A stretch of 64,000 bases of DNA from Jidongwangia harbinensis (GTDB taxonomy: Bacteria > Actinomycetota > Actinomycetes > Mycobacteriales > Micromonosporaceae). The notes under the pieces were generated by a model. It saw only the letters and a list, made by a program, of their open reading frames with translations, had not been told where the DNA came from and made no database searches. This document shows positions 9,706-21,965 of this stretch, in pieces. The position numbers and the translations under genes were made by a program. The DNA is taken from assembly GCF_020216025.1 (NCBI RefSeq), contig NZ_JAIWNC010000015.1:1-64000 (forward strand), read 5' to 3'. The first letter of the stretch is position 1, and each line of letters begins with the position of its first letter.

Positions 9706-11241
9706 ATGAGCACTCCACCCGTCCCCAGCACCGACGAGGAACGACTCGCCCAGCTCGGCTACCAACAGGAACTCCACCGTCGGCTGTCCGGCTTCTCGAA
9801 CTTCGCGGTTTCCTTCTCGATCATCTCCATCCTGGCCGGCGCCATCACGTCGTACGGCATCGCCATGACCGCGGGCGGGCCGATGGCCATCACGCTCGGC
9901 TGGGTCTTCGTCGGCGTCATGGTCACGTTCGTGGCGCTGGCCATGGCCGAGGTGTGCTCGGCGTATCCGACCGCGGGCGCGCTCTACTGGTGGGCGGCCG
10001 CGCTGGCGAAACGCAACAAGGCCGCCTGGGCGTGGTTCGTGGGGTGGTTCAACTTCCTCGGCGAGGTGGCGGTGACCGCGGCCATTGACTTCGGAGCCGC
10101 GATCACCACGTCCGCGTTCCTCAGCCTGACCTTCGACATGGAGGTCACCGCCGGGCGTACCTTCCTGATCTTCCTGGTCATCATCGCCGTGCACGGCCTG
10201 CTGAACACGTTCGGCGTGAACCTGGTCCGGCTGCTGTCCGACGTCAGCGCGTGGTGGCACCTGGTCGGCGTGGCGGTCATCGTGGGCGTGCTGGCCATCG
10301 TGCCGGACCAGCACAAGCCGATCTCCGAGGTGTTCTTCGAGGTCCGCAACGAGACCGGCTTCACGTTCGCCGGGGCGTCGTTGTACGCGGTGCTGATCGG
10401 CCTGTTGATGGCGCAGTACACGTACACCGGCTATGACGCCTCCGCGCACGTCGCGGAGGAGACCCACGACGCGGCCCGCGCGGCGCCCAAGGGCATCGTG
10501 ATGTCCGTGGTGGTCTCGCTGATCGCCGGATTCTTCCTGTTGTTCGCGATCACCTGGTCGATCCAGGACTACGACGCCCAGCGGACCACAGAACTGGGTC
10601 TGCCGCCGGCGCAGATCTTCATCGACGCGGCCGGCGACAACCTGGGCGCGTTCCTGCTGTTCATCTGCATGGTGGCGCAGTGGTTCTGCGGGATGGCGTC
10701 GGTGACCGCGAACTCGCGGATGGCGTACGCGTTCGCCCGGGACGGTGCGCTGCCCGGTTCGCGGCTGTGGAAGCAGGTCAACCCCCGCACGGGTACGCCG
10801 ACGAACTCGATCTGGCTGTGCGTCACGCTGTCCACCCTGCTGGTGCTGCCGTCGTTGTGGAACACCACCGCGTATCTCGCCGCCACGTCGGTCGCGGTGA
10901 TCGGGCTCTACATCGCGTACGTCGGGCCGGTGCTGTTGCGCCGGCTCAACCCGGACTTCCAGCCGGGGCCGTGGAACCTGGGCCGGTGGAGTGCGCCGGT
11001 GGGGTGGATCGCGATCGGCTGGGTAGTGGTGATCTGCGTGCTGTTCGTGCTGCCGCCGGCCAGTCCGATCACGCCGAGCACCTTCAACTACACGATCGTG
11101 GCGGTGGTGGTGGTGCTCGGTCTCGCGACGATCTGGTGGTTCGCCAGCGCCCGCAAGTGGTTCACCGGTCCGAAGCAGAATCTGATCGAGAAGGCGGCGC
11201 AGGGAGAACAGACCATGCCCACCATGCCGACCGACGGATAA
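9706..11241 (+). CDS. APC-superfamily amino acid/polyamine permease
   Basis: A 511-residue inner-membrane transporter with about twelve predicted helices. The conserved first helix motif is FSNFAVSFSIISILAGAITSYG (about residues 27-48), and the consensus GWVFVGVMVTFVALAMAEVCSAYPTAGALYWW follows (about 65-96); both are characteristic of APC permeases of the GABA/choline/ethanolamine-polyamine branch. The ATG at 9706 is preceded by GAGGGAGAG. It heads a rightward gene set with a glutamine-synthetase-like ligase 9 nt downstream, so the substrate is probably an amine destined for gamma-glutamylation (polyamine, ethanolamine or related). A TTGACG at 9628-9633 is a possible -35 element. Confidence 0.9.
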   Translation: MSTPPVPSTDEERLAQLGYQQELHRRLSGFSNFAVSFSIISILAGAITSYGIAMTAGGPMAITLGWVFVGVMVTFVALAMAEVCSAYPTAGALYWWAAALAKRNKAAWAWFVGWFNFLGEVAVTAAIDFGAAITTSAFLSLTFDMEVTAGRTFLIFLVIIAVHGLLNTFGVNLVRLLSDVSAWWHLVGVAVIVGVLAIVPDQHKPISEVFFEVRNETGFTFAGASLYAVLIGLLMAQYTYTGYDASAHVAEETHDAARAAPKGIVMSVVVSLIAGFFLLFAITWSIQDYDAQRTTELGLPPAQIFIDAAGDNLGAFLLFICMVAQWFCGMASVTANSRMAYAFARDGALPGSRLWKQVNPRTGTPTNSIWLCVTLSTLLVLPSLWNTTAYLAATSVAVIGLYIAYVGPVLLRRLNPDFQPGPWNLGRWSAPVGWIAIGWVVVICVLFVLPPASPITPSTFNYTIVAVVVVLGLATIWWFASARKWFTGPKQNLIEKAAQGEQTMPTMPTDG

Positions 11242-11250
11242 GGAAACTGG

Positions 11251-12597
11251 ATGCAACTCGAGGACCTTGATGTCGCCGTCGACAACGGCAGCATCGACAC
11301 GGTGCTGCTGGCCCTGACCGACATGCAGGGCCGGCTGCAGGGCAAGCGCCTGCACGGCCGGTACTTCATGGACGAGGTGGCCGGTGGCGGCAGCGAGGGC
11401 TGCAACTACCTGCTCGCGGTGGACGTGGACATGAACACCGTCGACGGGTACGCGATGTCGTCGTGGAACTCCGGGTACGGCGACTTCGTGATGCGGCCCG
11501 ACTTCGCCACGCTGCGCCGGGTGCCGTGGCAGCCGGGCACCGCGATGGTCCTCGCGGACCTGGAGACGACGGCCGGTGAGCCGGTGTACGCGTCGCCGCG
11601 CCAGATCCTGCGCCGCCAGCTGGACCGGCTGGCGGCGCACGGACTGACCGCGTACGCGGGCACCGAGCTGGAGTTCGTGCTCTACCGGGACACGTACGAG
11701 CAGGCGTTCCGGAAGAACTACCGGGACCTGGAGCCGGCGAACCAGTACAACGTCGACTACTCGATGCTCGGCACCGCGCGGGTGGAGCCCCTGCTGCGCC
11801 GGATCCGGAACGACATGTACGGCGCCGGCCTGGTCCCGGAGAGCGCCAAGGGCGAGTGCAACTTCGGCCAGCACGAGATCGCGTTCCGCTACGCCGAGGC
11901 GCTGACCTGCGCGGACAACCACGTCATCTACAAGAACGGCGCCAAGGAGATCGCCGCGCAGGAGGGCATGGCGCTGACCTTCATGGCCAAGCCGAACGAC
12001 CGGGAGGGCAACTCCTGCCACATCCACTTCTCGTTGCGCGGCGACGACGACCGGTCCGCGATGCTCGGCGACGGCCCGGCCCACCTCAGCGTCACCGGGC
12101 AGCGGGCGGTGGCCGGGCTGCTCGCCACCATGCGGGAGTTCAGCCTGCTGTTCGCGCCGAACATCAACTCGTACAAGCGGTACCAGCCGGGTTCGTTCGC
12201 GCCGACCGCGCTGCGCTGGGGCGTGGACAACCGGACCTGCGCGCTGCGGATGGCGGGGCACGGGCAGGGGATGCGGGTGGAGAACCGGGTGCCGGGCGGG
12301 GACGTGAACCCGTACCTGGCGATCGCCGCGCTGGTCGCCGGCGCGGTGCACGGCATCGAGAACGAGTTGGCGCTGGAGGACGAGTTCGTCGGCAACGCCT
12401 ACGACGACGCGCACGCCCCGCGGGTGCCGTCGACGTTGCGTGACGCCCACGAGTTGTGGGAGCTGAGTCCCACGGCGCGGGAGGCGTTCGGCGCGGAGGT
12501 GGTCGCGCACTACGCGAACATGGCGAAGGTGGAGCTGGCCGCGTACGACGCCGCGGTGACGGACTGGGAGCTGCGGCGCGGCTTCGAGCGCCTGTGA
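11251..12597 (+). CDS. Glutamine synthetase-like gamma-glutamyl-amine ligase
   Basis: A 448-residue member of the glutamine synthetase fold. The N-terminal beta-grasp domain covers about 1-105 (with TDMQGRLQGKRLHGRYFM). The catalytic domain starts near 110 and shows GTELEFVLY (metal ligands), KGECNFGQHEIAFRYA, the NSCHIHFSLRG metal-binding His segment, the NSYKRYQPGSFAPTALRWG ATP/glutamate loop and ENRVPGGDVNPYLAIAALVAG. It lacks the adenylylation-loop Tyr context of true GlnA. Genes of this type beside a permease, aldehyde dehydrogenase and gamma-glutamyl hydrolase encode gamma-glutamylpolyamine or gamma-glutamylethanolamide synthetases (PuuA; Streptomyces GlnA3/GlnA4). The exact amine cannot be told. 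AAGGA precedes the ATG. Confidence 0.88.
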   Translation: MQLEDLDVAVDNGSIDTVLLALTDMQGRLQGKRLHGRYFMDEVAGGGSEGCNYLLAVDVDMNTVDGYAMSSWNSGYGDFVMRPDFATLRRVPWQPGTAMVLADLETTAGEPVYASPRQILRRQLDRLAAHGLTAYAGTELEFVLYRDTYEQAFRKNYRDLEPANQYNVDYSMLGTARVEPLLRRIRNDMYGAGLVPESAKGECNFGQHEIAFRYAEALTCADNHVIYKNGAKEIAAQEGMALTFMAKPNDREGNSCHIHFSLRGDDDRSAMLGDGPAHLSVTGQRAVAGLLATMREFSLLFAPNINSYKRYQPGSFAPTALRWGVDNRTCALRMAGHGQGMRVENRVPGGDVNPYLAIAALVAGAVHGIENELALEDEFVGNAYDDAHAPRVPSTLRDAHELWELSPTAREAFGAEVVAHYANMAKVELAAYDAAVTDWELRRGFERL

Positions 12598-12606
12598 TCC
12601 ACTCGG

Positions 12607-12644
12607 GTGGTACACCACGGTTGTTATGGACGCCGGATAACGAC
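12607..12644 (+). other. Minor hairpins after the ligase gene
   Basis: A short GTGG-TACA-CCAC stem (12607-12618) is followed by an 8-bp stem with one U-G pair (12620-12627 with 12637-12644). The second stem's right arm overlaps by 3 nt the left arm of the large hairpin at 12642-12685, so the two could compete in the transcript. Confidence 0.35.
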
Positions 12645-12685
12645 GCTGGTGTTCCACTGGAGCACTCCAGTGGAACACCAGCGTC
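12642..12685 (+). terminator. Perfect 20-bp hairpin between ligase and aldehyde dehydrogenase genes
   Basis: The arms at 12642-12661 and 12666-12685 are exact reverse complements with a GCAC loop. It follows the ligase stop by 45 nt and precedes the aldehyde dehydrogenase GTG by 15 nt. There is no U-tract, so it could act as a weak terminator, an mRNA-stabilising 3' end for the permease-ligase mRNA, an RNase III site, or a protein-binding palindrome. Confidence 0.7.
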
Positions 12686-12700
12686 AGCGGAGGTGCGCGG

Positions 12701-14053
12701 GTGACTGAGGTGATCAACCCGGCGACGGGGGCGGTGCTGACGGACGTACCCGCGTCGGATCTGGCCCGGACCGACGCGGCGATCGAGCGTGCGCACCGGG
12801 CCTTCGCCGACTGGCGCGGGGTCGCCCCGGCGGACCGCGCCCGCCTGCTGCGCCGGTTCGCGGCGGTGGTCGACGCGCACGTCGACGAACTGGCCGACCT
12901 GGAGGTGCGCAACTCCGGGCACACCATCGGCAACGCCCGCTGGGAGGCGGGCAACGTGCGCGACGTGCTGGACTACTACGCGGGCGCGCCCGAACGCCTG
13001 GCCGGGCGGCAGATCCCGGTGGCCGGCGGGGTGGACGTGACGTTCCACGAGCCGCTCGGCGTGGTCGGGATCATCGTGCCGTGGAACTTCCCGATGCCGA
13101 TCGCGGGCTGGGGGTTCGGGCCGGCGCTGGCGGCCGGCAACACGGTGGTGCTGAAACCGGCCGAGCTGACCCCGCTGACCGCGATCCGCCTGGGTGAGCT
13201 GGCGCTGGAGGCGGGCCTGCCGGAGGACGTGTTCACCGTGCTGCCGGGCAAGGGCGGCGTGGTGGGCCAGCGGTTCGTGACGCATCCGGCGGTCCGCAAG
13301 GTGTGTTTCACCGGCTCCACCGGCGTCGGCAAGTCGATCATGGCGGGCTGTGCCGAGCAGGTGAAGCGGGTGACGCTGGAGCTGGGCGGCAAGAGTGCCA
13401 ACATCGTCTTCGCGGACGCCGACCTGGACCGGGCCGCCGCGTCCGCGCCGGCGAGCGTGTTCGACAACGCCGGGCAGGACTGCTGCGCCCGGTCCCGGCT
13501 GCTGGTCCAGGATTCGGTGTACGACCGCTTCCTGGCCCTGCTGGAGCCGGCCGTGAAGGCGTTCCGGGTGGAGGATCCGTCCCGGCCCACCGCGGAGATG
13601 GGACCGCTCATCTCGGCGGGGCAGCGGTCCAGCGTGGCGTCCTACGTGACCGGCGCCGACGTGGCGTTCACCGGCGACGCCCCGGACGGCGACGGCTGGT
13701 GGTACCCGCCGACGGTGCTGCTCGCGCACTCGACCGGCGACCGGCACTGGCGCGAGGAGGTCTTCGGGCCGGTGCTCTCGGTGCTGCCGTTCCGCGACGA
13801 GGAGGAGGCGCTCCGGCTGGCCAACGACACCGAGTACGGCCTGTCCGGCTCGATCTGGACCCGCGACGTGGGCCGGGCGCTGCGGGTGGCCCGCGGTGTC
13901 GAGTCCGGCAACCTGAGCGTCAACTCGCACTCGTCGGTGCGGTACTCGACTCCGTTCGGCGGGATGAAGCAGTCCGGTCTGGGTCGGGAGCTGGGTCCGG
14001 ACGCCCTGCAGTCGTTCACCGACGTCAAGAACGTCTTCATCTCCACGGATTGA
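12701..14053 (+). CDS. NAD(P)-dependent aldehyde dehydrogenase
   Basis: A 450-residue ALDH-superfamily enzyme, slightly shorter than the usual 475-500. The Rossmann/substrate segment is VVGIIVPWNFPMPIAGWGFGPALAAGNTVVLKPAE. The NAD loop is FTGSTGVGKSI, the general base Glu is E227 in LELGGK, and the nucleophile is C261 or C262 in GQDCCARSR; the doublet Cys is common in aminoaldehyde dehydrogenases. GPVLSVLPF and the C-terminal PFGGMKQSGLGRELG are also present. GTG 12701 is the start, 15 nt after a large hairpin. In context it should oxidise the gamma-glutamyl-amino-aldehyde formed from an imported amine. No amine oxidase is in the cluster, so that step may be done by the SDR or elsewhere. Confidence 0.9.
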   Translation: MTEVINPATGAVLTDVPASDLARTDAAIERAHRAFADWRGVAPADRARLLRRFAAVVDAHVDELADLEVRNSGHTIGNARWEAGNVRDVLDYYAGAPERLAGRQIPVAGGVDVTFHEPLGVVGIIVPWNFPMPIAGWGFGPALAAGNTVVLKPAELTPLTAIRLGELALEAGLPEDVFTVLPGKGGVVGQRFVTHPAVRKVCFTGSTGVGKSIMAGCAEQVKRVTLELGGKSANIVFADADLDRAAASAPASVFDNAGQDCCARSRLLVQDSVYDRFLALLEPAVKAFRVEDPSRPTAEMGPLISAGQRSSVASYVTGADVAFTGDAPDGDGWWYPPTVLLAHSTGDRHWREEVFGPVLSVLPFRDEEEALRLANDTEYGLSGSIWTRDVGRALRVARGVESGNLSVNSHSSVRYSTPFGGMKQSGLGRELGPDALQSFTDVKNVFISTD

Positions 14054-14060
14054 GGGTTGC

Positions 14061-14825
14061 ATGGAACGACTGCAGGACCGGGTCGCGGTGATCACCGGGG
14101 CGGGGAGCGGGATCGGTCGGGCGACGGCCCACCGCTTCGCCGCCGAGGGCGCCCGGGTGGTTTGCGCTGATGTTTCGGAAAAATCGGGCAAGGCAGTGGC
14201 GGCGGAGGTCGGGGGCACGTTCGTGGCCTGCGACGTCGCCGACGAGAACTCGGTCCGCGACCTGTTCGACGGGGTGGCCGCCGACCACGGACGGGTGGAC
14301 ATCGCGTTCAACAACGCCGGCATCTCGCCGCCCGACGACGACTCCATCCTGGTCACCGGGCTGGACGCGTGGGAGCGGGTGCTCAAGGTCAACACCACCA
14401 GCGTGTTCCTGTGCTGCAAGTACGCCATCCCGCACATGCAGCGGCAGGGCAAGGGCTCGATCATCAACACCGCGTCGTTCGTGGCGCTGATGGGCGCGGC
14501 GACCTCGCAGATCGCGTACACGGCAAGCAAGGGCGGAGTGCTGGCGATGACCCGGGAACTGGGCGTGCAGTTCGCCCGGGAGGGCATCCGGGTGAACGCG
14601 CTGTGCCCCGGCCCGGTCGCCACGCCGCTGCTGATGGACCTGTTCGCCAAGGACCCGGAACGCGCCGCGCGGCGGCTGGTGCACGTGCCGATGGGCCGGT
14701 TCGCCGAACCCGAGGAGATCGCCGCCGCGGTGGCGTTCCTGGCCAGCGACGACGCCAGCTTCATGACGGGGGCCCAGTTCGTGGTGGACGGGGGCATCAC
14801 CGGGGCGTACGTCACCCCGCTGTGA
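14061..14825 (+). CDS. Short-chain dehydrogenase/reductase (SDR)
   Basis: A 254-residue classical SDR. The coenzyme motif TGAGSGIG is at 12-19, followed by the NNAG motif. The catalytic Ser sits in NTASFVALMGA, the catalytic pair is Y153 and K157 in YTASK, and the PG motif in LCPGPVATPL completes the site. Acidic D38-like residues after the second strand (VCADVS) favour NAD over NADP. It lies 7 nt downstream of the aldehyde dehydrogenase. It may interconvert an alcohol and the aldehyde used by the dehydrogenase, as would suit ethanolamine- or amino-alcohol-derived intermediates. The substrate is inferred from context only. Confidence 0.88.
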   Translation: MERLQDRVAVITGAGSGIGRATAHRFAAEGARVVCADVSEKSGKAVAAEVGGTFVACDVADENSVRDLFDGVAADHGRVDIAFNNAGISPPDDDSILVTGLDAWERVLKVNTTSVFLCCKYAIPHMQRQGKGSIINTASFVALMGAATSQIAYTASKGGVLAMTRELGVQFAREGIRVNALCPGPVATPLLMDLFAKDPERAARRLVHVPMGRFAEPEEIAAAVAFLASDDASFMTGAQFVVDGGITGAYVTPL

Positions 14826-14851
14826 CGCGACGGTCTGGTTACGGTGGAGAG

Positions 14852-15538
14852 ATGCGCCCGATCATCGGCATCACCACCTACGTGGAACCGGCGTCCTGGG
14901 GGGTCTGGCAGGACCTCGACACGACGCTGGTCCCGCACGCGTACACCGAGGCGGTGACCCGGGCCGGTGGCCGGGCGGTGCTGCTGCCGCCGGACGACGC
15001 CGACGCCGACGTGCTGCGGCTGCTCGACGGCCTGGTGCTCAGCGGCGGCGCCGATCTGGACCCGGCGCTGTACGGCGCGGCCGCGGAGCCGCTGACCGTC
15101 ACCCGGCCGGACCGGGACTCCGCGGAGATGCTGCTCACCCGGGCCGCGCTCGCCGCCGACCTGCCGGTGCTCGGCGTCTGCCGGGGCATCCAGATGCTGG
15201 CGGTGGCCGCCGGCGGCGCCCTGCACCAGCACCTGCCGGACGTGCTCGGGCACGAGAAGCACCGCCCGGCGCCCGGGGTGTACGGCTCGCACGAGGCCCG
15301 GTTCACCCCGGGCAGCCGGATCGCGGCGCTGATGGGCGACGACCGGGAGGTGCACTGCTACCACCACCAGGGGGTGGCCGACCCCGGCACGCTCATCGTC
15401 ACCGGACGGGCCGAGGACGGCACGGTCGAGGCGGTGGAAGATCCGGCGCACAGGTTTGTCCTGGGCGTGCAGTGGCATCCAGAGTTGTACTCCGACCAGC
15501 GCCTGTTCGGTGCCCTGGTGACGGCGGCGACCGCCTGA
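14852..15538 (+). CDS. Class I glutamine amidotransferase-like gamma-glutamyl hydrolase (copy 1)
   Basis: A 228-residue peptidase C26-type hydrolase related to PuuD, the gamma-glutamyl-GABA hydrolase. The nucleophile C110 lies in the elbow GVCRG, the catalytic His is in LGVQWHPE, and the oxyanion strand FSGGADLDP-like region (LVLSGGADLDPALYG) is present. Expected role: release glutamate from a gamma-glutamylated product of the ligase/dehydrogenase pathway. It begins 26 nt after the SDR with GGAGAG upstream. A second homologue starts 29 nt after its stop. Confidence 0.9.
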   Translation: MRPIIGITTYVEPASWGVWQDLDTTLVPHAYTEAVTRAGGRAVLLPPDDADADVLRLLDGLVLSGGADLDPALYGAAAEPLTVTRPDRDSAEMLLTRAALAADLPVLGVCRGIQMLAVAAGGALHQHLPDVLGHEKHRPAPGVYGSHEARFTPGSRIAALMGDDREVHCYHHQGVADPGTLIVTGRAEDGTVEAVEDPAHRFVLGVQWHPELYSDQRLFGALVTAATA

Positions 15539-15567
15539 CCTACGACGAGACGAGGAGACCGCACCAC

Positions 15568-16317
15568 ATGCGCAGGCCCCTGATCGGACTAACCGCATAC
15601 GCACAGCACGTCCAGTACAGCGGCAACGAACTGATGGCCGGGATGCTCCCGATGACGTACGTCCGGGCCGTGCACGCCACCGGCGGCCGCGCGGTCCTGA
15701 TCACCCCGGACGACCCGGGCACCGACGTGCTCGAGTCCCTGGACGGCATCATGTTCTCCGGCGGCGGTGACATCGACCCGGCGTACTGGGGCGCGGAGCC
15801 GCACCCGGCCACCGACATCGACCCGGCCCGGGACACCGCCGAGCTGATGCTGATGAAGGCGGCTCTGGAGATGGACCTGCCGGTGCTCGGCGTCTGCCGG
15901 GGCCAGCAGGTGATGGCGGTGGCCGGCGGCGGTTCGCTGCACCAGCACCTGCCGGACGTGATCGGCCACGACCGGCACCGGGCCGCGCCGGGCACCGACC
16001 CGCTGGCCGCGGACGCCGCCGCGTACGGCCGGCACGACGTGGTCACCAAGACCGGATCCCGGGCGCACGCACTGCTCGGCGGGCACCTCACCGTCAACTC
16101 GTTCCACCACCAGGCGGTGGACGACCCGGGCACGTTCACGCCGACCGGCTGGTGCCCGGACGACCAGGTCATCGAGATCATCGAGGACCCGCGCCGGACG
16201 TTCGCGCTGGGCGTGCAGTGGCACCCGGAACGCACCGGCGACCTGCGGGTGTTCGCCGCGCTGGCGGAGGCCGCGGCCCGCCGCGCCGGGCTGGCCCGCC
16301 CCGCCCTCGCCGCCTGA
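15568..16317 (+). CDS. Class I glutamine amidotransferase-like gamma-glutamyl hydrolase (copy 2)
   Basis: A 249-residue paralogue of the upstream hydrolase, with the nucleophile at the same position (C110 in GVCRGQQVM), the catalytic LGVQWHPE and the FSGGGDIDPAYWG segment. It has an insertion of about 20 residues after the RHRAAPG loop and a different N-terminal lid (YAQHVQYSGNELMAGMLP). Conserved catalytic residues but diverged lid suggest different gamma-glutamyl substrates for the two copies. ACGAGGAGACC precedes the ATG. It is the last gene of the operon. Confidence 0.9.
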   Translation: MRRPLIGLTAYAQHVQYSGNELMAGMLPMTYVRAVHATGGRAVLITPDDPGTDVLESLDGIMFSGGGDIDPAYWGAEPHPATDIDPARDTAELMLMKAALEMDLPVLGVCRGQQVMAVAGGGSLHQHLPDVIGHDRHRAAPGTDPLAADAAAYGRHDVVTKTGSRAHALLGGHLTVNSFHHQAVDDPGTFTPTGWCPDDQVIEIIEDPRRTFALGVQWHPERTGDLRVFAALAEAAARRAGLARPALAA

Positions 16318-16331
16318 CGCCGGGCCGGCGG

Positions 16332-16946
16332 TCAGGCCGCGACCGGGAACGCGAACTGGAACGCGAGCCGTTCGTCCGCTCCGGCCGCCAGGTTCTCCAG
16401 CACGTCGTCCAGTTCGATCAGCGCCTCCCACGGCGTGCGGCCGCTGTGCTCCACCACCCGCTGCTCCAGCTCCGGCAGCCGGTTGCCCTTCCAGATCTTG
16501 TCGGCGAGGGTCACCAGCAGATCGTCCGTCGTGACGTCCGGCGCGGTCCAGGAGCCGTGGGTGCCGGCGAAACGGGCCAGGTGCTGGGGTACGCCGTAGC
16601 GCAGCAGCAGCCGCTCGCCGGCCGCCTCGTGCGCGGAGCCCGGGCCGGACAACTCCTCCGGGTGAAGCACCTTGCCGATGTCGTGGCTGGCGGCACCGAA
16701 CAGCACCGCGGTGGTGTCGAACGGCACCGTGGGCCAGCACCGTCCCAGCGCGTCGGTCAGGGTCCACGCCACGTCGTGCACCAGGCGCAGGTGGGCGCCG
16801 AGCCGGGGCGGTGCCTGCAGGTCCAGCAGCAGTTCGGCGGCCGGGGCGGGCAGCGGCCGCAACGCCGAGGCGGTCAACGCGCGTTCCAGCGGGGAGGCGG
16901 TCACCCCGGCAAGGGTAGCCACGCGCCCACCGGTCCTCCGGCGCAC
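16332..16946 (-). CDS. HD-domain phosphohydrolase-like protein
   Basis: Up to 204 residues with an HD superfamily metal-binding core. The first His is in LVHDVAWTL, the HD pair is in LFGAASHDIGKVLHP, another His is in GTHGSW, and the distal Asp is in VTLADKIWKGN; together they give the H-HD-D metal set. HD proteins of this size usually hydrolyse nucleotides or phosphoesters; the substrate is unknown. The start is uncertain: 16946 gives the full frame, while GTG 16922 (8 residues shorter) is also plausible. It is convergent with the hydrolase operon (14 nt gap) and divergent from the large sensor gene. Confidence 0.75.
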   Translation of the reverse strand: MRRRTGGRVATLAGVTASPLERALTASALRPLPAPAAELLLDLQAPPRLGAHLRLVHDVAWTLTDALGRCWPTVPFDTTAVLFGAASHDIGKVLHPEELSGPGSAHEAAGERLLLRYGVPQHLARFAGTHGSWTAPDVTTDDLLVTLADKIWKGNRLPELEQRVVEHSGRTPWEALIELDDVLENLAAGADERLAFQFAFPVAA

Positions 16947-17016
16947 TCCCGCTGAAGGACCGACCGCGCGGTGTTACGGTGCAGAACTTGCCGGTGGAAC
17001 AGGGACGGGAGGGTGG

Positions 17017-20000
17017 ATGGGCGCGGGCTCGGACGGCGTCCTGCCGCGGCAACTGCGGACTGCCTTCGAGCGCGGCGGCGAGATGGGCCGCCGGATGCTG
17101 GCGATGGACTGGTCCTCCTCACCGCTCGGCCCGCCCGCGCAGTGGCCGGCGGAACTGCGCCAGGCCGTCGCCACCATGCTCGCGTCGCGCGCCCAGATCG
17201 TGCTGTTCTACGGGCCGGACTACTGCGCGCTCTACAACGACGCGTACATCGTCACGATGGGCAGCAAGCACCCCGGCTACCTCGGTGCGCCCGGCCGCCA
17301 GATGTGGTCCGAGACCTGGTCGGTGCTGCAGGAACTGTTCGATGGCGTGGTGCGGGCCGACGAGTCGTACTGGGCCACCGACCACCCGTTCACGCTGGAA
17401 CGGTACGGCTTCCTCGAGGAGACGTACTTCGACATCTCGTACGACCCGATCCGGGCCGACGACGGCTCGGTGCGCGGCGTCTTCTGCATCGTCAGCGACA
17501 CCACCGGACGGGTGCTGGGCGCGCGCCGGGTGCGTGCCCTGAGCGCCCTCGGGTCCCGGCTGGCCGACGCGCCCGACCAGGCCACGCTGGGCGCCCGGGT
17601 GGCCGAGTGGTTCGGCGAGAACGGCGCCGACGTGCCGTTCGCCGCGCTCTACCTGAACGACCCCGCCGAGGGCGGCGAGCCGACCCTGGCGAGCGCGGCG
17701 GGCGCGCCGGCGGAGGCCTTCGGCAGGCGGTACGACCAGGTCCGCGAGTCCATCGCCGAGGTGCTGCGGTCCAGCCGCCCGGACCGGTTGCCCGCCGCGA
17801 CGACCTGCGATCCGCCGCCACCGTCGGCCGCCGCCGAGGCCCTGGTGCTGCCGGTCGGCGTGGGCACCGGCAACGTCGGGGTGCTGGTCCTCGGGCTGAG
17901 CCGGTACCTGGCACTGGACCGGGGCTACTCCGACTTCCTGGAACTGACCAACGGGCAGATCTCCCGGGCCGTCGCCAACCTCCGCGCGTACGAGCAGGAA
18001 CGCCGCCGCGCCGCCGACCTGGCCGCGCTGGACGCCGCCAAGACGAACTTCTTCTCCAATGTCAGTCACGAGTTCCGTACCCCGCTGACGTTGATCCTGG
18101 GCCCGCTGGAGGACCTGCTCGACATGCCGGCGCTGCCCGCGGCGATGCGCGAGCGGCTGGAACCGATGCAGCGCAACGGCCTGCGCCTGCTGAAGCTGGT
18201 CAACACGGTGCTGGACTTCTCCCGGCTGGAGTCCGGGCGGCTGCGCGCCGCGTACCGGCCCACCGACCTGTCCGACTACACCGCGCGGCTGGCCAGCACG
18301 TTCCGGTCCGCGATCGAACGGGCCGGGCTGCGGCTCGAGGTGGACACCCCGCCGCTGCCCGCGCCGGTGCTGGTGGACCGCGAGATGTGGGAGAAGATCG
18401 TCTTCAACCTGCTCTCCAACGCGGTGAAATTCACCCGGGTGGGGCAGATCACCGTGCGGGTCTCCGTGCAGGACGACGACGCGGTGCTCGAGGTCGCCGA
18501 CACCGGCGTGGGCGTGCCGCCGGCCGAGCAGAAGCTGCTCTTCGACCGGTTCCACCGGGTCAGCAGCACCTGGTCGCGCAGCCACGAGGGCACCGGTATC
18601 GGGCTGGCGCTGGTGCACGAGCTGGCCGAACTGCACGGCGGCACCGCCACCGCGCAGAGCGAACTGGGCCGGGGCAGCACGTTCACGGTGCGGATCCCGT
18701 TCGGCACCGCCCACCTGCCGGCCGACCGGATCCTGGCGGACGACGGCGCGGAGACCGAGATGGAGCCGCGCCTCTACGTCGAGGAGGCGCGCTGGTGGGC
18801 CGGCGGTCCGGTGCCCGAGACCCCGGAACAGTCGGCCGGTGAGGTCCAGCCCGGGCGGCGGGGCCGGGTCCTGCTCGCCGACGACAACGCCGACCTGCGT
18901 GACCACGTCGCCCGGCTGCTGCGCCCGCACTGGGAGGTGACCGCGGTCGCGGACGGCCAGGAGGCGCTGGACCGGGCCGTGGCCCAGCCCTTCGACCTGG
19001 TCCTCACGGACGTGATGATGCCGCGGCTGGACGGCTTCGGGCTGATCAAGGCGTTGCGGGCGGACGAACGTACCCGGGATGTGCCGATCGTGGTCCTGTC
19101 CGCCCGGGCCGGCGAGGAGTCCTCCGTGGAGGGGCTCACCGCGGGTGCCGACGACTATCTGGTCAAGCCGTTCTCCGCGCGGGACCTCACCGCCCGGGTC
19201 CGCGCCAACCTGGAGCTGGGGCAGGTCCGCCGGCAGATCATCAGCCGGCTGCGCGGGCTGGTCGACGCGGCCGCCGCGGTCAACACCGTGCGGACCACGG
19301 CCGAGGTGCTGGACATGGCGGCGCGTCACGTCCGGGCGATGACCGCGGCCGGCCGGGTGGTGGTGACCGCGCCCGGCGCCCGGTCCGAGGTGGACGGCGG
19401 CGCCGACGCGGGCGCCGGGCCGGACGCCGTGCTGCCGCTGCCGGACACGTCCGGCGCCGCGCTCGGCGAGCTGCGGGTCTGGGCCGGCGAGGACGGCCGG
19501 CCCGAGCCGGTGCTGCTCACCCAGCTGGCCCGGCTGATCGGCCTGCGGCTGGAGAACGCCCGCCTCTACGAGGCGGAACACCGGATCGCCAGCACGCTGC
19601 AGCACAGCCTGCTGCCGCAGTCGCTGCCGCGGGTGCCCGGGGCCATCGTGGCCAGCCGGTACGTGCCGGGCAGCAGCGAGGCGGAGGTGGGCGGCGACTG
19701 GTACGACGTGATCCTGGCCCCCGACGACCAGCTGTTCCTGGTGATCGGCGACGTGGTCGGCAAGGGCGTGCAGGCCGCCGCCGGGATGGGTCAGCTCCGC
19801 AACGCGCTCCGGGCGTACATCCTGGAGGGTTTCGACTGCGGCGAGGCCCTGACCCGCCTCAACCGCCTGGTGGACAACCTGGGCCGGCGGCAGTTCGCCA
19901 CCGTGGTGTGCGTGCGGTTCGACCCGCGCAGCCGGCAGCTGCACTACTCGTCCGCGGGACATCCCTCGCCGGTGCTGGTGACCCCGGGGCGGCTTGGCTC

Positions 20001-20664
20001 GTTCCTCTACTCGTCGGCGCTGGGTCCACCGGTCGGCGCGCTCAGCGACGTGACGTATCCGACGCGGGAGACCGAACTGGGTGCCGGAGACCGGCTCCTG
20101 CTCTACACCGACGGCCTGGTCGAGGACCGCAAGGCCGGCATCGACAGCGGACTGACGGAGCTCACCTCGAACGCCGCCACGCCCGCCGAACACGTGGAGG
20201 ATCTGCTGGACTCGCTGCTCGAGAAGGTGGTCCGGCAGACCCGGCGCGACGACATCGCCCTGCTCGCCCTGCAGGTGACCGAGCCGCGCGAGTTCGTCCT
20301 GCGGCTGCCCGCCGACCCCAACCGGCTCAGCGTGCTGCGCCGGCGCCTGGACGACTTCCTCACCGCGCACGAGGTGCCGGAGAACGACGTCTTCGACCTC
20401 ACCGTGGCCGTGTCGGAGGCGGTGGCGAACGCCATCGAACACCCGATAGAGCCCCGCGAGCCGGTGGTCACGGTGGAGGCGAGCCTGGCCGACGACGCGG
20501 TGGTGATCACGGTACGGGACACCGGGCGCTGGCGGCCGTCGACGTCGGCGGGTTTCCGCGGTCGCGGCCTGGCGCTGATCGGGGCGCTGTCCGAGCTGTC
20601 CGTGGTGCGGTCCGACTCGGGCACGTCGGTGACGCTGCGCCGGCCGCTCGGCGCGGCCGGCTGA
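17017..20664 (+). CDS. Hybrid histidine kinase-receiver-SpoIIE phosphatase-RsbW-like fusion
   Basis: A 1215-residue cytosolic signalling protein without transmembrane segments. Order of domains: PAS-like (about 25-165); GAF-like (about 175-325); HisKA with H351 in SHEFRTP; HATPase_c with N-box N468 and DTGVG from D495; receiver with phospho-acceptor D665 and a LVKPF lysine; a second GAF-like region (about 740-860); SpoIIE/PP2C phosphatase with GGDWYD (D894), IGDVVGKG and LLYTDGL/DD metal sites; and a C-terminal RsbW-type HATPase with N-box around N1138. This joins a complete two-component phosphorelay to both halves of a partner-switching module. A STAS protein, the expected phosphatase/kinase substrate, is encoded convergently 6 nt away. 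GGGAGGGTGG precedes the ATG. Confidence 0.93.
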   Translation: MGAGSDGVLPRQLRTAFERGGEMGRRMLAMDWSSSPLGPPAQWPAELRQAVATMLASRAQIVLFYGPDYCALYNDAYIVTMGSKHPGYLGAPGRQMWSETWSVLQELFDGVVRADESYWATDHPFTLERYGFLEETYFDISYDPIRADDGSVRGVFCIVSDTTGRVLGARRVRALSALGSRLADAPDQATLGARVAEWFGENGADVPFAALYLNDPAEGGEPTLASAAGAPAEAFGRRYDQVRESIAEVLRSSRPDRLPAATTCDPPPPSAAAEALVLPVGVGTGNVGVLVLGLSRYLALDRGYSDFLELTNGQISRAVANLRAYEQERRRAADLAALDAAKTNFFSNVSHEFRTPLTLILGPLEDLLDMPALPAAMRERLEPMQRNGLRLLKLVNTVLDFSRLESGRLRAAYRPTDLSDYTARLASTFRSAIERAGLRLEVDTPPLPAPVLVDREMWEKIVFNLLSNAVKFTRVGQITVRVSVQDDDAVLEVADTGVGVPPAEQKLLFDRFHRVSSTWSRSHEGTGIGLALVHELAELHGGTATAQSELGRGSTFTVRIPFGTAHLPADRILADDGAETEMEPRLYVEEARWWAGGPVPETPEQSAGEVQPGRRGRVLLADDNADLRDHVARLLRPHWEVTAVADGQEALDRAVAQPFDLVLTDVMMPRLDGFGLIKALRADERTRDVPIVVLSARAGEESSVEGLTAGADDYLVKPFSARDLTARVRANLELGQVRRQIISRLRGLVDAAAAVNTVRTTAEVLDMAARHVRAMTAAGRVVVTAPGARSEVDGGADAGAGPDAVLPLPDTSGAALGELRVWAGEDGRPEPVLLTQLARLIGLRLENARLYEAEHRIASTLQHSLLPQSLPRVPGAIVASRYVPGSSEAEVGGDWYDVILAPDDQLFLVIGDVVGKGVQAAAGMGQLRNALRAYILEGFDCGEALTRLNRLVDNLGRRQFATVVCVRFDPRSRQLHYSSAGHPSPVLVTPGRLGSFLYSSALGPPVGALSDVTYPTRETELGAGDRLLLYTDGLVEDRKAGIDSGLTELTSNAATPAEHVEDLLDSLLEKVVRQTRRDDIALLALQVTEPREFVLRLPADPNRLSVLRRRLDDFLTAHEVPENDVFDLTVAVSEAVANAIEHPIEPREPVVTVEASLADDAVVITVRDTGRWRPSTSAGFRGRGLALIGALSELSVVRSDSGTSVTLRRPLGAAG

Positions 20665-20670
20665 GTTCGC

Positions 20671-20979
20671 TCAGCTCTTCAGCCAGGGCTGGCCGCTCAG
20701 CCCGGAGATGTCCAGGACGCGGCGCACCTGCGGGGACGGCAGGACCTCCAGCGTCTCCGGGTAGCGCTCGGCGAGCCGGACCAGCGCGTGGATGGCCGCC
20801 GAGTCGAAGAACGTGACACCGCGCAGGTCCAGCGTCGCCGCGCGGGCCGAGTCGCGGGTGGCCGCGGAGATCATGTCGCCGGCCGTGGACATGTCGACCT
20901 CGCCGGTCACGACCACGGTGACGCGGTCACCGTCGACCGCACCGGTCGCCGAGAAGATGTCGGGGTCGTCTTGATCCAC
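20671..20979 (-). CDS. STAS-domain anti-sigma factor antagonist
   Basis: A 102-residue single STAS domain protein. The strand-helix pattern VTVVVTGEVDMSTAGDM is followed by LDLRGVTFFDSAAIHALVRLAERYP, in which the Ser of the FDSAAIH segment is the usual phosphorylation site of SpoIIAA/RsbV-type antagonists. The expected role is a switch that binds an anti-sigma kinase when unphosphorylated. It is convergent with the fusion protein that carries both an RsbW-like kinase domain and a SpoIIE phosphatase, so the pair probably act together. The sigma factor target is not encoded nearby. The start is GTG, with an AT-containing TGTAAT about 8-10 nt upstream, suggesting a short or absent leader. Confidence 0.88.
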   Translation of the reverse strand: MDQDDPDIFSATGAVDGDRVTVVVTGEVDMSTAGDMISAATRDSARAATLDLRGVTFFDSAAIHALVRLAERYPETLEVLPSPQVRRVLDISGLSGQPWLKS

Positions 20980-21107
20980 GCTGACACGATTACACAGGGG
21001 GTCAGGGGCGGCAAGAACCGGTTCATTATGGGCAACGGACCCGTTACCCGACCGTGGCCGTACCGGACGCCGGCGGCCGTGCCGACGTACGGCGATAGGC
21101 TGTGGCT

Positions 21108-21965
21108 ATGACGGTTCGTGCCCCATTGGTCCCGGGTCAGCAGTCGCCGTGGCGGGCGGTGCCGCCGCAGATCCCCCGTCCGGAGTACGTCGGCAAGAAG
21201 CGCCCGAAAGAGTGGCGCGGCTCGCACGTCCAGACCCCCGAGACGATCGAGAAGATGCGGATCGCGGGCCGGCTCGCCGCCCAGGCCACCCAGCTGGCCG
21301 GCGAGCACTGCAAGCCGGGCGTGACCACCGACGAGATCGACCGGGTGGTGCACGAGTTCCTCTGCGACCACGGCGCGTACCCGTCCACGCTCGGCTACAA
21401 GGGTTTTCCCAAGTCGTGCTGCACGTCGCTGAACGAGGTGATCTGCCACGGCATCCCGGACTCGACGGTGCTGGCCGACGGCGACATCATCAACGTCGAC
21501 GTCACCGCGTTCCTGAACGGCGTGCACGGCGACACCGACGCCACGTTCTGCGTCGGCGAGGTCAGCGACGAGGTCCGGCTGCTGGTCGAACGCACCCACG
21601 AGGCGATGATGCGGGGCATCCGCACGGTCGCCCCGGGTCGGCCGATCAACGCCATCGGCCGGGTGATCGAGGCCTACGCACGGCGTTTCGGGTACGGCGT
21701 GGTCCGCGACTTCACCGGGCACGGCATCGGCGAGACGTTCCACTCCGGGCTGTACATCCCGCACTACGACAACCCGCGCCTGGACGCCGTCATGGAACCC
21801 GGCATGACGTTCACCATCGAACCGATGATCACGCTCGGCACCCACGAGTACCACATGTGGGACGACGGCTGGACCGTCGTCACCAAGGACCTGAAGTGGA
21901 CCGCCCAGTTCGAGCACACCCTGGTGGTCACGGACGACGGGTACGAGATCCTGACGCTCCCGTGA
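21108..21965 (+). CDS. map: Methionine aminopeptidase, type I
   Basis: A 285-residue dimetal enzyme that removes the initiator Met from nascent proteins. The substrate His is in EVICHGIP; metal ligands are the two Asp of [20 protein letters not shown], the His of FTGHGIG, the Glu of TIEPM and the Glu of QFEHTL. Residues 1-40 form an extension containing a PxxP-rich segment ([18 protein letters not shown]) that resembles the MapB-type linker of actinobacterial enzymes with an SH3-binding motif. ATG 21108 is chosen over GTG 21102. A TAGGCT -10-like element lies about 11 nt upstream, so the transcript leader is short. The stop overlaps the next gene's GTG. Confidence 0.95.

Follow-up and report, generated by a model that had tools for sequence, protein, structure and literature searches.

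The window, that is, the whole stretch of DNA analysed here, comprises 64,000 nucleotides (nt) from Jidongwangia harbinensis, a soil bacterium of the family Micromonosporaceae (contig NZ_JAIWNC010000015.1, positions 1 to 64,000). Between positions 17,017 and 20,979 it contains two genes in tail-to-tail orientation, one encoding a 1215-residue fusion protein (P0001) and the other a small STAS-domain protein (P0002). In the fusion, the parts of a two-component sensor and those of a partner switch are joined in one chain, as had been predicted and as is evident from the order of its Pfam domains. The features of the locus are as follows:

17017..20664, + strand: 1215-residue fusion protein P0001, open frame with ATG at 17017; orthologues in 56 of 60 sampled genomes of the genus
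17074..17574, + strand: N-terminal PAS region, residues 20-186 (PAS_4 below cut-off; AlphaFold2 model; profile match to the Rv1364c PAS domain)
17590..17973, + strand: first GAF domain, residues 192-319 (GAF_2 below cut-off; AlphaFold2 model)
18037..18237, + strand: HisKA dimerisation/phospho-acceptor domain with H351 (Pfam, 56.8 bits)
18385..18702, + strand: HATPase_c domain of the histidine kinase with N468 and D495 (Pfam)
18868..19203, + strand: receiver domain with D665 (Pfam, 87.4 bits)
19297..19506, + strand: small GAF-like domain, residues 761-830 (topology of the AlphaFold2 model only)
19507..19611, + strand: 35-residue helix running into the phosphatase, residues 831-865 (AlphaFold2 model)
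19720..20277, + strand: SpoIIE/PP2C phosphatase with D894, D912, D1032, D1078 and D1079 (Pfam, 177.5 bits; 3KE6 as top fold match)
20305..20640, + strand: RsbW-type HATPase with E1134, N1138, D1168 and G1182 (HATPase_c_2, 88.1 bits; fold match to RsbW, 6M37)
20671..20979, − strand: convergent STAS-domain protein P0002, 102 residues; orthologues in 58 of 60 sampled genomes of the genus
20800..20802, − strand: codon of Ser60 in the FFDSAAI motif, the predicted phospho-acceptor (aligned with the SpoIIAA DSSG serine)

Domain composition of the fusion protein and its STAS neighbour

The Pfam domains of P0001 that score over cut-off are HisKA (residues 341-407), HATPase_c (457-562), Response_reg (618-729), SpoIIE (902-1087), and HATPase_c_2 (1097-1208). 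The N-terminal sensor domains stay below (PAS_4 with 21.1 bits against a cut-off of 23.1, GAF_2 with 24.7 against 28.6), but relatives clear the cut-off for both families (PAS_4, 27.7 in L192; GAF_2, 37.3 in L098), and an AlphaFold2 model of residues 2-348, based on the orthologue alignment and with a predicted local distance difference test score (pLDDT) of 94.4, contains a PAS-like and a GAF-like fold followed by a long helix towards HisKA. The domain order given in the original prediction is thereby borne out, and H351, N468, D495, D665, D894, and N1138 all lie at the positions it had named. Its "second GAF" stands in part: the model of residues 733-1215 (pLDDT 87.5) comprises a helix, a small GAF-like domain, the 35-residue helix, PP2C, and a GHKL HATPase, and the region between receiver and PP2C forms a helix-four-strand-helix domain of about 70 residues that is GAF-like by topology alone, whereas the Pfam scan of this region gave no match. 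No membrane part was found among the recognised domains.

With HisKA, HATPase_c, and a receiver in one chain, each with its active-site residues, P0001 is a hybrid histidine kinase. It had been described as a phosphorelay, but the His-Asp-His-Asp series with an Hpt domain or an equivalent, which characterises a multi-step phosphorelay, is not found in P0001 by Pfam, as neither an Hpt domain nor a second receiver occurs among its matches up to an E value of 0.1; the rest of the genome was not searched for a separate Hpt. Because of the missing Hpt domain, we classify the protein as a hybrid kinase and not as a full phosphorelay.

P0002 matches both STAS_2 (36.3 bits) and STAS (32.4 bits) over cut-off, and its coordinates agree with the predicted convergent STAS gene, with the two stop codons 6 nt apart (20665-20670). 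When the stops are counted, the ends of both reading frames overlap in 44 of 63 orthologous loci. Ser60 aligns with the first serine of the SpoIIAA DSSG motif, which we take to be the phosphorylation site, and the FFDS motif is found in all 65 alignment rows and also in both STAS-only loci that were read. The locus therefore contains the parts of an RsbU/RsbW/RsbV-type partner switch, namely a PP2C phosphatase, an RsbW-type kinase, and a STAS protein with an acceptor serine, and, according to Pfam, a single chain holds both the phosphatase and the kinase part for a common class of substrate, as expected from the original prediction. Judged by sequence, the hybrid histidine kinase (H351, D665), the PP2C, and the RsbW-type serine kinase are intact, and the STAS protein carries the acceptor serine.

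Conservation, co-occurrence, and loss

The catalytic residues were followed in an alignment of 65 rows, consisting of P0001 and 64 loci of genus and Micromonospora-type genomes with one duplicate (L072 is contained letter for letter in L092). H351 is a histidine in all 57 rows having this column (gaps in L100, L146, and L192-L197), N468 and D495 are both present in 58 of 58, and D665 is an aspartate in 59 of 59. D894, D912, and D1032 of the PP2C are invariant (65/65), as is G1182 of the last domain, while D1078 and D1079 as well as E1134, N1138, and D1168 are found in 64 of the 65 rows, the exception being L197 with its broken frame. The loss of catalytic residues in several domains, which the original prediction had named as evidence against itself, is thus not seen across the alignment. 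Mean identity to P0001 amounts to 75-85% for HisKA, receiver, GAF-like region, PP2C, and the second HATPase, to 71% for the first HATPase, 69% for PAS, and 50% for the first GAF, the least conserved domain, which is to be expected if the perceived signal varies between species.

The predicted co-occurrence of fusion and STAS gene was found at both taxonomic levels sampled. Among the 60 genomes of the genus, 56 encode the fusion (counted at E values up to 1e-200) and 58 the STAS protein, which is the convergent neighbour in all 56. The four remaining genomes have natural deletions at the same site between puuD and map, and in one of them (L220, G025 C1, 1098-1469) a free HATPase that derives from the fusion's last domain persists in an intact frame beside map, with PP2C and STAS gone. 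The family sample comprised 200 genomes of 44 genera, searched for STAS at E values up to 1e-12 and for residues 741-1215 at up to 1e-75; its genomes were scored on these two parts. STAS matches occur in 94 genomes (11 of the 44 genera) and the C-terminal half in 90, with both in 87, STAS alone in 7, the C-terminal half alone in 3, and neither in 103. In 84 of the 87 genomes with both, the genes are convergent within 250 nt, and in the other three they are convergent and farther apart; at L264 (G104 C4), about 3.6 kb separate STAS and fusion, and the gap in G139 is similar. The association has a Fisher p of 6e-44, a value that overstates independence as the species are related. The pair is linked strongly, although not strictly. 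As the two genes occur in this arrangement in dozens of species, the locus is not a product of chance.

The two-component part behaves as a removable cassette. Histidine kinase, receiver, and PP2C are found together in 51 of the 56 genus orthologues, one of them (G031) with broken frames, whereas the other five (L192-L196) and the orthologue of Micromonospora avicenniae (L146) lack the kinase. In these six, PAS joins the GAF-like region and PP2C in a single open frame without HisKA, HATPase, and receiver; GAF is detectable in four of the six, and the layout was confirmed by Pfam for L192 and L146. On the tree of the C-terminal part, the presence of the histidine kinase-receiver block needs four changes, of which well-supported branches force at least three, although three forced changes might equal one gain and two losses. 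Most simply, the changes are losses, as the PAS-GAF-kinase-receiver block also occurs in other phyla. L100 and L197 were not counted among them because pieces of the kinase sit in other frames. STAS is retained as the convergent neighbour in all six kinase-less loci, indicating that PP2C-HATPase and STAS form the core that stays together, with the two-component part as an added input. Nine genus matches starting at residues 243-266 (L182-L184, L186-L191) had appeared to carry swapped N-termini, but tblastn found residues 1-9 to 739-740 at 61-70% identity in all nine, so that these are full chains split in the search and not sensor swaps.

Map and VIT-type genes flank the fusion-STAS pair in most sampled loci. 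The STAS and map (methionine aminopeptidase-like) genes are divergent in 63 loci, with a short intergenic stretch (window 20980-21110). Well conserved within it are CTTGCCG and CTGTGTAATCGTG, close to the start of STAS, and AGCCTATC, close to that of map, which by eye resemble leaderless promoters. A scan of positions 16800-21200 for sigma-70-type sites returned a single weak one within the STAS gene, and no terminator was found in the same interval. Upstream of the fusion, at window 9706-16317, lie genes for an amino-acid permease, a glutamine synthetase-like protein, an aldehyde dehydrogenase, a short-chain dehydrogenase, and a C26 glutamine amidotransferase, a run that resembles a polyamine or ethanolamine gamma-glutamyl pathway; the amidotransferase gene precedes the fusion locus in sampled genus loci and was not found in Micromonospora-type loci. 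Another hybrid kinase is encoded on the same contig (window 38983-41670, − strand); its frame of 895 residues has one match to a histidine kinase and two to receivers.

The genome as a whole has 28 SpoIIE and 35 STAS matches. They include a second full chain of the same layout on contig C120 (L216, 3289-6975), which is 41% identical to P0001, whose SpoIIE match spans only profile positions 1-130 of 192, and beside which no STAS match was found on that contig. Three sigma factors of the SigBFG family score over cut-off, none of them on the contig of the window. At C56:30065-32918, one reading frame holds a SigBFG sigma factor and, after it, a STAS match, and a further STAS match lies close by; this arrangement resembles the SsdA/SipA sigma/anti-sigma system of Actinoplanes missouriensis (PMC10733313). 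SpoIIE matches at C23:141165-141722 and C29:139362-139919 have identical scores and frame lengths and represent a duplication or an assembly repeat. A frame on C40 was considered as a SpoIIE-HATPase-STAS fusion and rejected, since its Pfam scan contains no STAS; the STAS match is in a different frame, immediately downstream.

Spread of the chain and relation to known systems

The full chain recurs in several actinobacterial families, as far as its domains can be assigned from sequence. Relatives were drawn from the best 80 matches listed of a larger set, which is not a census. Of these, 39 contain histidine kinase, receiver, and PP2C in one frame, and 34 of them also the second HATPase, a number that includes L100 with its frame broken inside the kinase part. 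STAS lies co-directionally just downstream of 19 of these 34 chains (among them L137 and L157, which have a divergent upstream STAS in addition) and convergently beside 9, and for 6 no STAS was found within 400 nt; L159, a chain without the second HATPase, has a divergent upstream STAS as its only one. Pfam scans of 14 relatives identified the whole HisKA-HATPase-REC-SpoIIE-HATPase_c_2 chain in 10, with hosts including Streptomyces cellulosae, Mycolicibacterium austroafricanum, Saccharothrix algeriensis, Pseudonocardia acaciae, Nocardioides caldifontis, and Micromonospora antibiotica, and several of the 10 have a PAS domain between receiver and PP2C. In the same set, the last domain is missing from the chain of Herbidospora mongoliensis, and the histidine kinase-receiver part from L192, L146, and L198. 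The PAS-GAF-kinase-receiver block alone (approximately residues 20-740) also occurs, among the matches listed, in proteobacteria, cyanobacteria, and other phyla, with 41-50% identity in the best segment. The chain had been called little studied, and our literature search found no study of the full HK-REC-PP2C-RsbW chain and no title or abstract on it among the matches listed, which is weak evidence of absence as most subscription journals were outside the search; with 34 of the best 80 matches, however, the chain is not rare.

By sequence, the closest solved relative of the PP2C-HATPase part is the RsbU-RsbW domain pair of Rv1364c (phmmer E 3e-48; profile 5.3e-81), and by fold it is also nearest to 3KE6 (Foldseek E 1.8e-26; VIA-align Z 29.6 over 330 aligned residues), where a root-mean-square deviation (rmsd) of 10.6 suggests a different domain arrangement. 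The C-terminal HATPase superimposes on RsbW (6M37) with Z 17.9 and an rmsd of 1.7 over 112 aligned residues. In a profile search of PDB sequences with the N-terminal region, only three entries of the Rv1364c PAS domain fell below an E value of 1e-8 (best E 3.7e-10). Rv1364c of Mycobacterium tuberculosis combines PAS, PP2C, kinase, and STAS in one chain, and its kinase and phosphatase act on its own STAS serine (PMC10950880). P0001 shares with it the PP2C directly followed by an RsbW-type HATPase, homologous to 3KE6, and, by sequence, the N-terminal PAS, but differs in that GAF, HisKA, HATPase, receiver, and the GAF-like domain lie between PAS and PP2C, and in that STAS is not fused C-terminally but encoded by a separate convergent gene. 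Since Rv1364c is nearest for both PAS and PP2C-HATPase, P0001 reads as an Rv1364c-type module with a GAF-kinase-receiver insert and a detached STAS, a description of layout and homology deduced from sequence and not of the order of events.

OsaC of Streptomyces coelicolor has an RsbW-like domain. Excerpts of the literature describe GAF and PAS sensor domains ahead of its PP2C and, in contrast to P0001, name no histidine kinase or receiver for it (PMC12143880). HsbR of Pseudomonas aeruginosa and CrsR of Shewanella oneidensis combine receiver, PP2C, and a kinase/anti-sigma domain in one chain and have the separate STAS-type antagonists HsbA and CrsA; HsbR is fed by separate hybrid kinases via HptB (PMC6482189). 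P0001 has the same domain order and a separate STAS, and adds the GAF-like domain between receiver and PP2C. Unlike in these proteins, its receiver does not sit in a protein separate from the kinase, as PAS, GAF, HisKA, and HATPase precede it in the same chain, in which no Hpt was found by Pfam. In the RsfS-RsfR (Mycobacterium smegmatis) and RsbK-RsbY (Bacillus cereus) pairs, a histidine kinase controls a receiver-PP2C protein that dephosphorylates the anti-sigma antagonist; these are separate proteins, and the excerpts consulted do not describe an RsbW-type domain on the phosphatase (PMC10950880, PMC4574943).

The original prediction regarded two-component signalling and partner switching as normally separate logics, which was too strong, as HsbR and CrsR (receiver-PP2C-kinase) and Rv1364c (PAS-PP2C-kinase-STAS) attest (PMC6482189, PMC10950880). 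With close relatives of each half already known, the system looks less like a new kind than like a variant that has gone unstudied. As a variant P0001 is real and conserved, and it brings the HsbR and Rv1364c kinds together.

Proposed mechanism and alternative explanations

On the basis of these domain and residue assignments, P0001 is probably a sensor that sets the phosphorylation state of the neighbouring STAS protein P0002, as an Rv1364c-type module with a plug-in histidine kinase-receiver cassette. Signals perceived by PAS and GAF would set the autophosphorylation of H351, from which the phosphoryl group would pass to D665 within the molecule or within the same dimer. The state of the receiver could then reach the PP2C dimer by way of the small GAF-like domain and the helix of 35 residues and alter the rate at which Ser60 of STAS is dephosphorylated, whereas the C-terminal HATPase would rephosphorylate this serine. 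Unphosphorylated STAS may bind an anti-sigma factor or another HATPase partner, be it the C-terminal domain of P0001 or a different protein, and thereby release a client. We include the helix-linker step because work on RsbU proposes that PP2C dimers are coupled to PAS, GAF, and receiver domains by coiled-coil linkers (PMC12143880). Both signs of control have precedents: receiver phosphorylation lowers the phosphatase activity of RsfR (PMC10950880), whereas for HsbR and RsbY it is reported or proposed to promote this activity (PMC6482189, PMC4574943). More tentatively, P0001 might be a one-chain His/Asp-to-Ser converter, in which a removable complete two-component sensor biases, in cis, the balance of a serine phosphatase/kinase with both functions, so that one dimer would hold the signal, the set-point, and the two opposing enzymes.

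Several observations weigh against P0001 as the regulator of P0002. Being tail to tail, the two genes cannot belong to one operon. In G036 the fusion is gone and STAS is kept, G019 retains STAS beside a 26-residue piece of the fusion's last domain, and G025 has lost STAS and retains the free-standing HATPase as the sole remnant of the fusion; G023 has lost both genes. Of the seven family genomes with STAS alone, three were inspected: G145 and G183 have no fusion in the stretch retrieved around STAS, and in G077 the contig ends too soon. Two of the three with the C-terminal half alone were inspected and encode a short PP2C-HATPase beside map, with no STAS. Since STAS can be retained where no functional fusion is present, other partners may exist for it, and the numbers of SpoIIE and STAS matches in the genome make cross-talk possible. 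In a test of partial co-divergence with STAS, values were highest for the receiver (0.30) and the first HATPase (0.29) and lower for the second HATPase (0.13, p 0.055) and PP2C (0.06, p 0.23). This test used 49 of the 56 genus rows, leaving out L185, the broken L197, and the kinase-less L192-L196, and no special co-divergence of STAS and the second HATPase was seen. In the fold search, bacteriophytochrome PAS-GAF structures come out ahead for the N-terminal model, whose match to the Rv1364c PAS domain (3k3c) ranks only 46, with 25% identity.

Some of these observations would also fit a different assignment, in which P0002 is not the main substrate: the PP2C-HATPase part would act on another STAS protein of the cell, P0002 would serve another kinase, and the pairing would be kept by synteny with map. 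STAS genes without a fusion (2/60 genus and 7/200 family genomes), C-terminal halves without STAS (3/200), the map and VIT-type genes that flank the pair as well, the unremarkable co-divergence, and the 35 STAS matches in the genome all point that way. Nevertheless, 87 of the 97 family genomes matching either partner retain the pair, and other full chains adjoin STAS in another arrangement, co-directional in 19 of the 34 noted above, which shared synteny does not explain; we therefore consider this assignment unlikely. It is also rather improbable that the histidine kinase-receiver part does not gate the PP2C of its own chain, with the receiver acting as a brake on the kinase or as a sink for its phosphate and H351 signalling to another response regulator. 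An inhibitory receiver is described for RsbK of Bacillus cereus (PMC4574943), and the C-terminal tree indicates that the cassette can be lost with the rest kept; against this, the receiver directly precedes the helix and GAF-like domain leading into PP2C (Pfam, AlphaFold2), and kinase, receiver, and PP2C are kept together both in the genus and in distant actinobacteria. Deletions and remnants in relatives, and the broken frames of the L100 and G031 copies, which are possibly assembly errors, could be taken as signs of a locus in decay in this lineage, with a fusion protein that does not function. The copy in the window is, however, a single open frame in which every catalytic residue is present, and orthologues with roughly 60-80% identity retain these residues as well, making decay highly improbable.

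Regulation of P0002 by P0001 thus remains the reading we favour. The chain recurs in several actinobacterial families, yet no title or abstract among the matches listed deals with it. The natural variants with and without histidine kinase, phosphatase, or STAS constitute a ready-made deletion series, and the proposal that sensor domains ahead of PP2C are exchangeable, put forward in the RsbU work (PMC12143880), is directly testable in one orthologous series. If the proposed mechanism is right, a two-component sensor would be wired straight into a partner switch, without diffusible intermediates.

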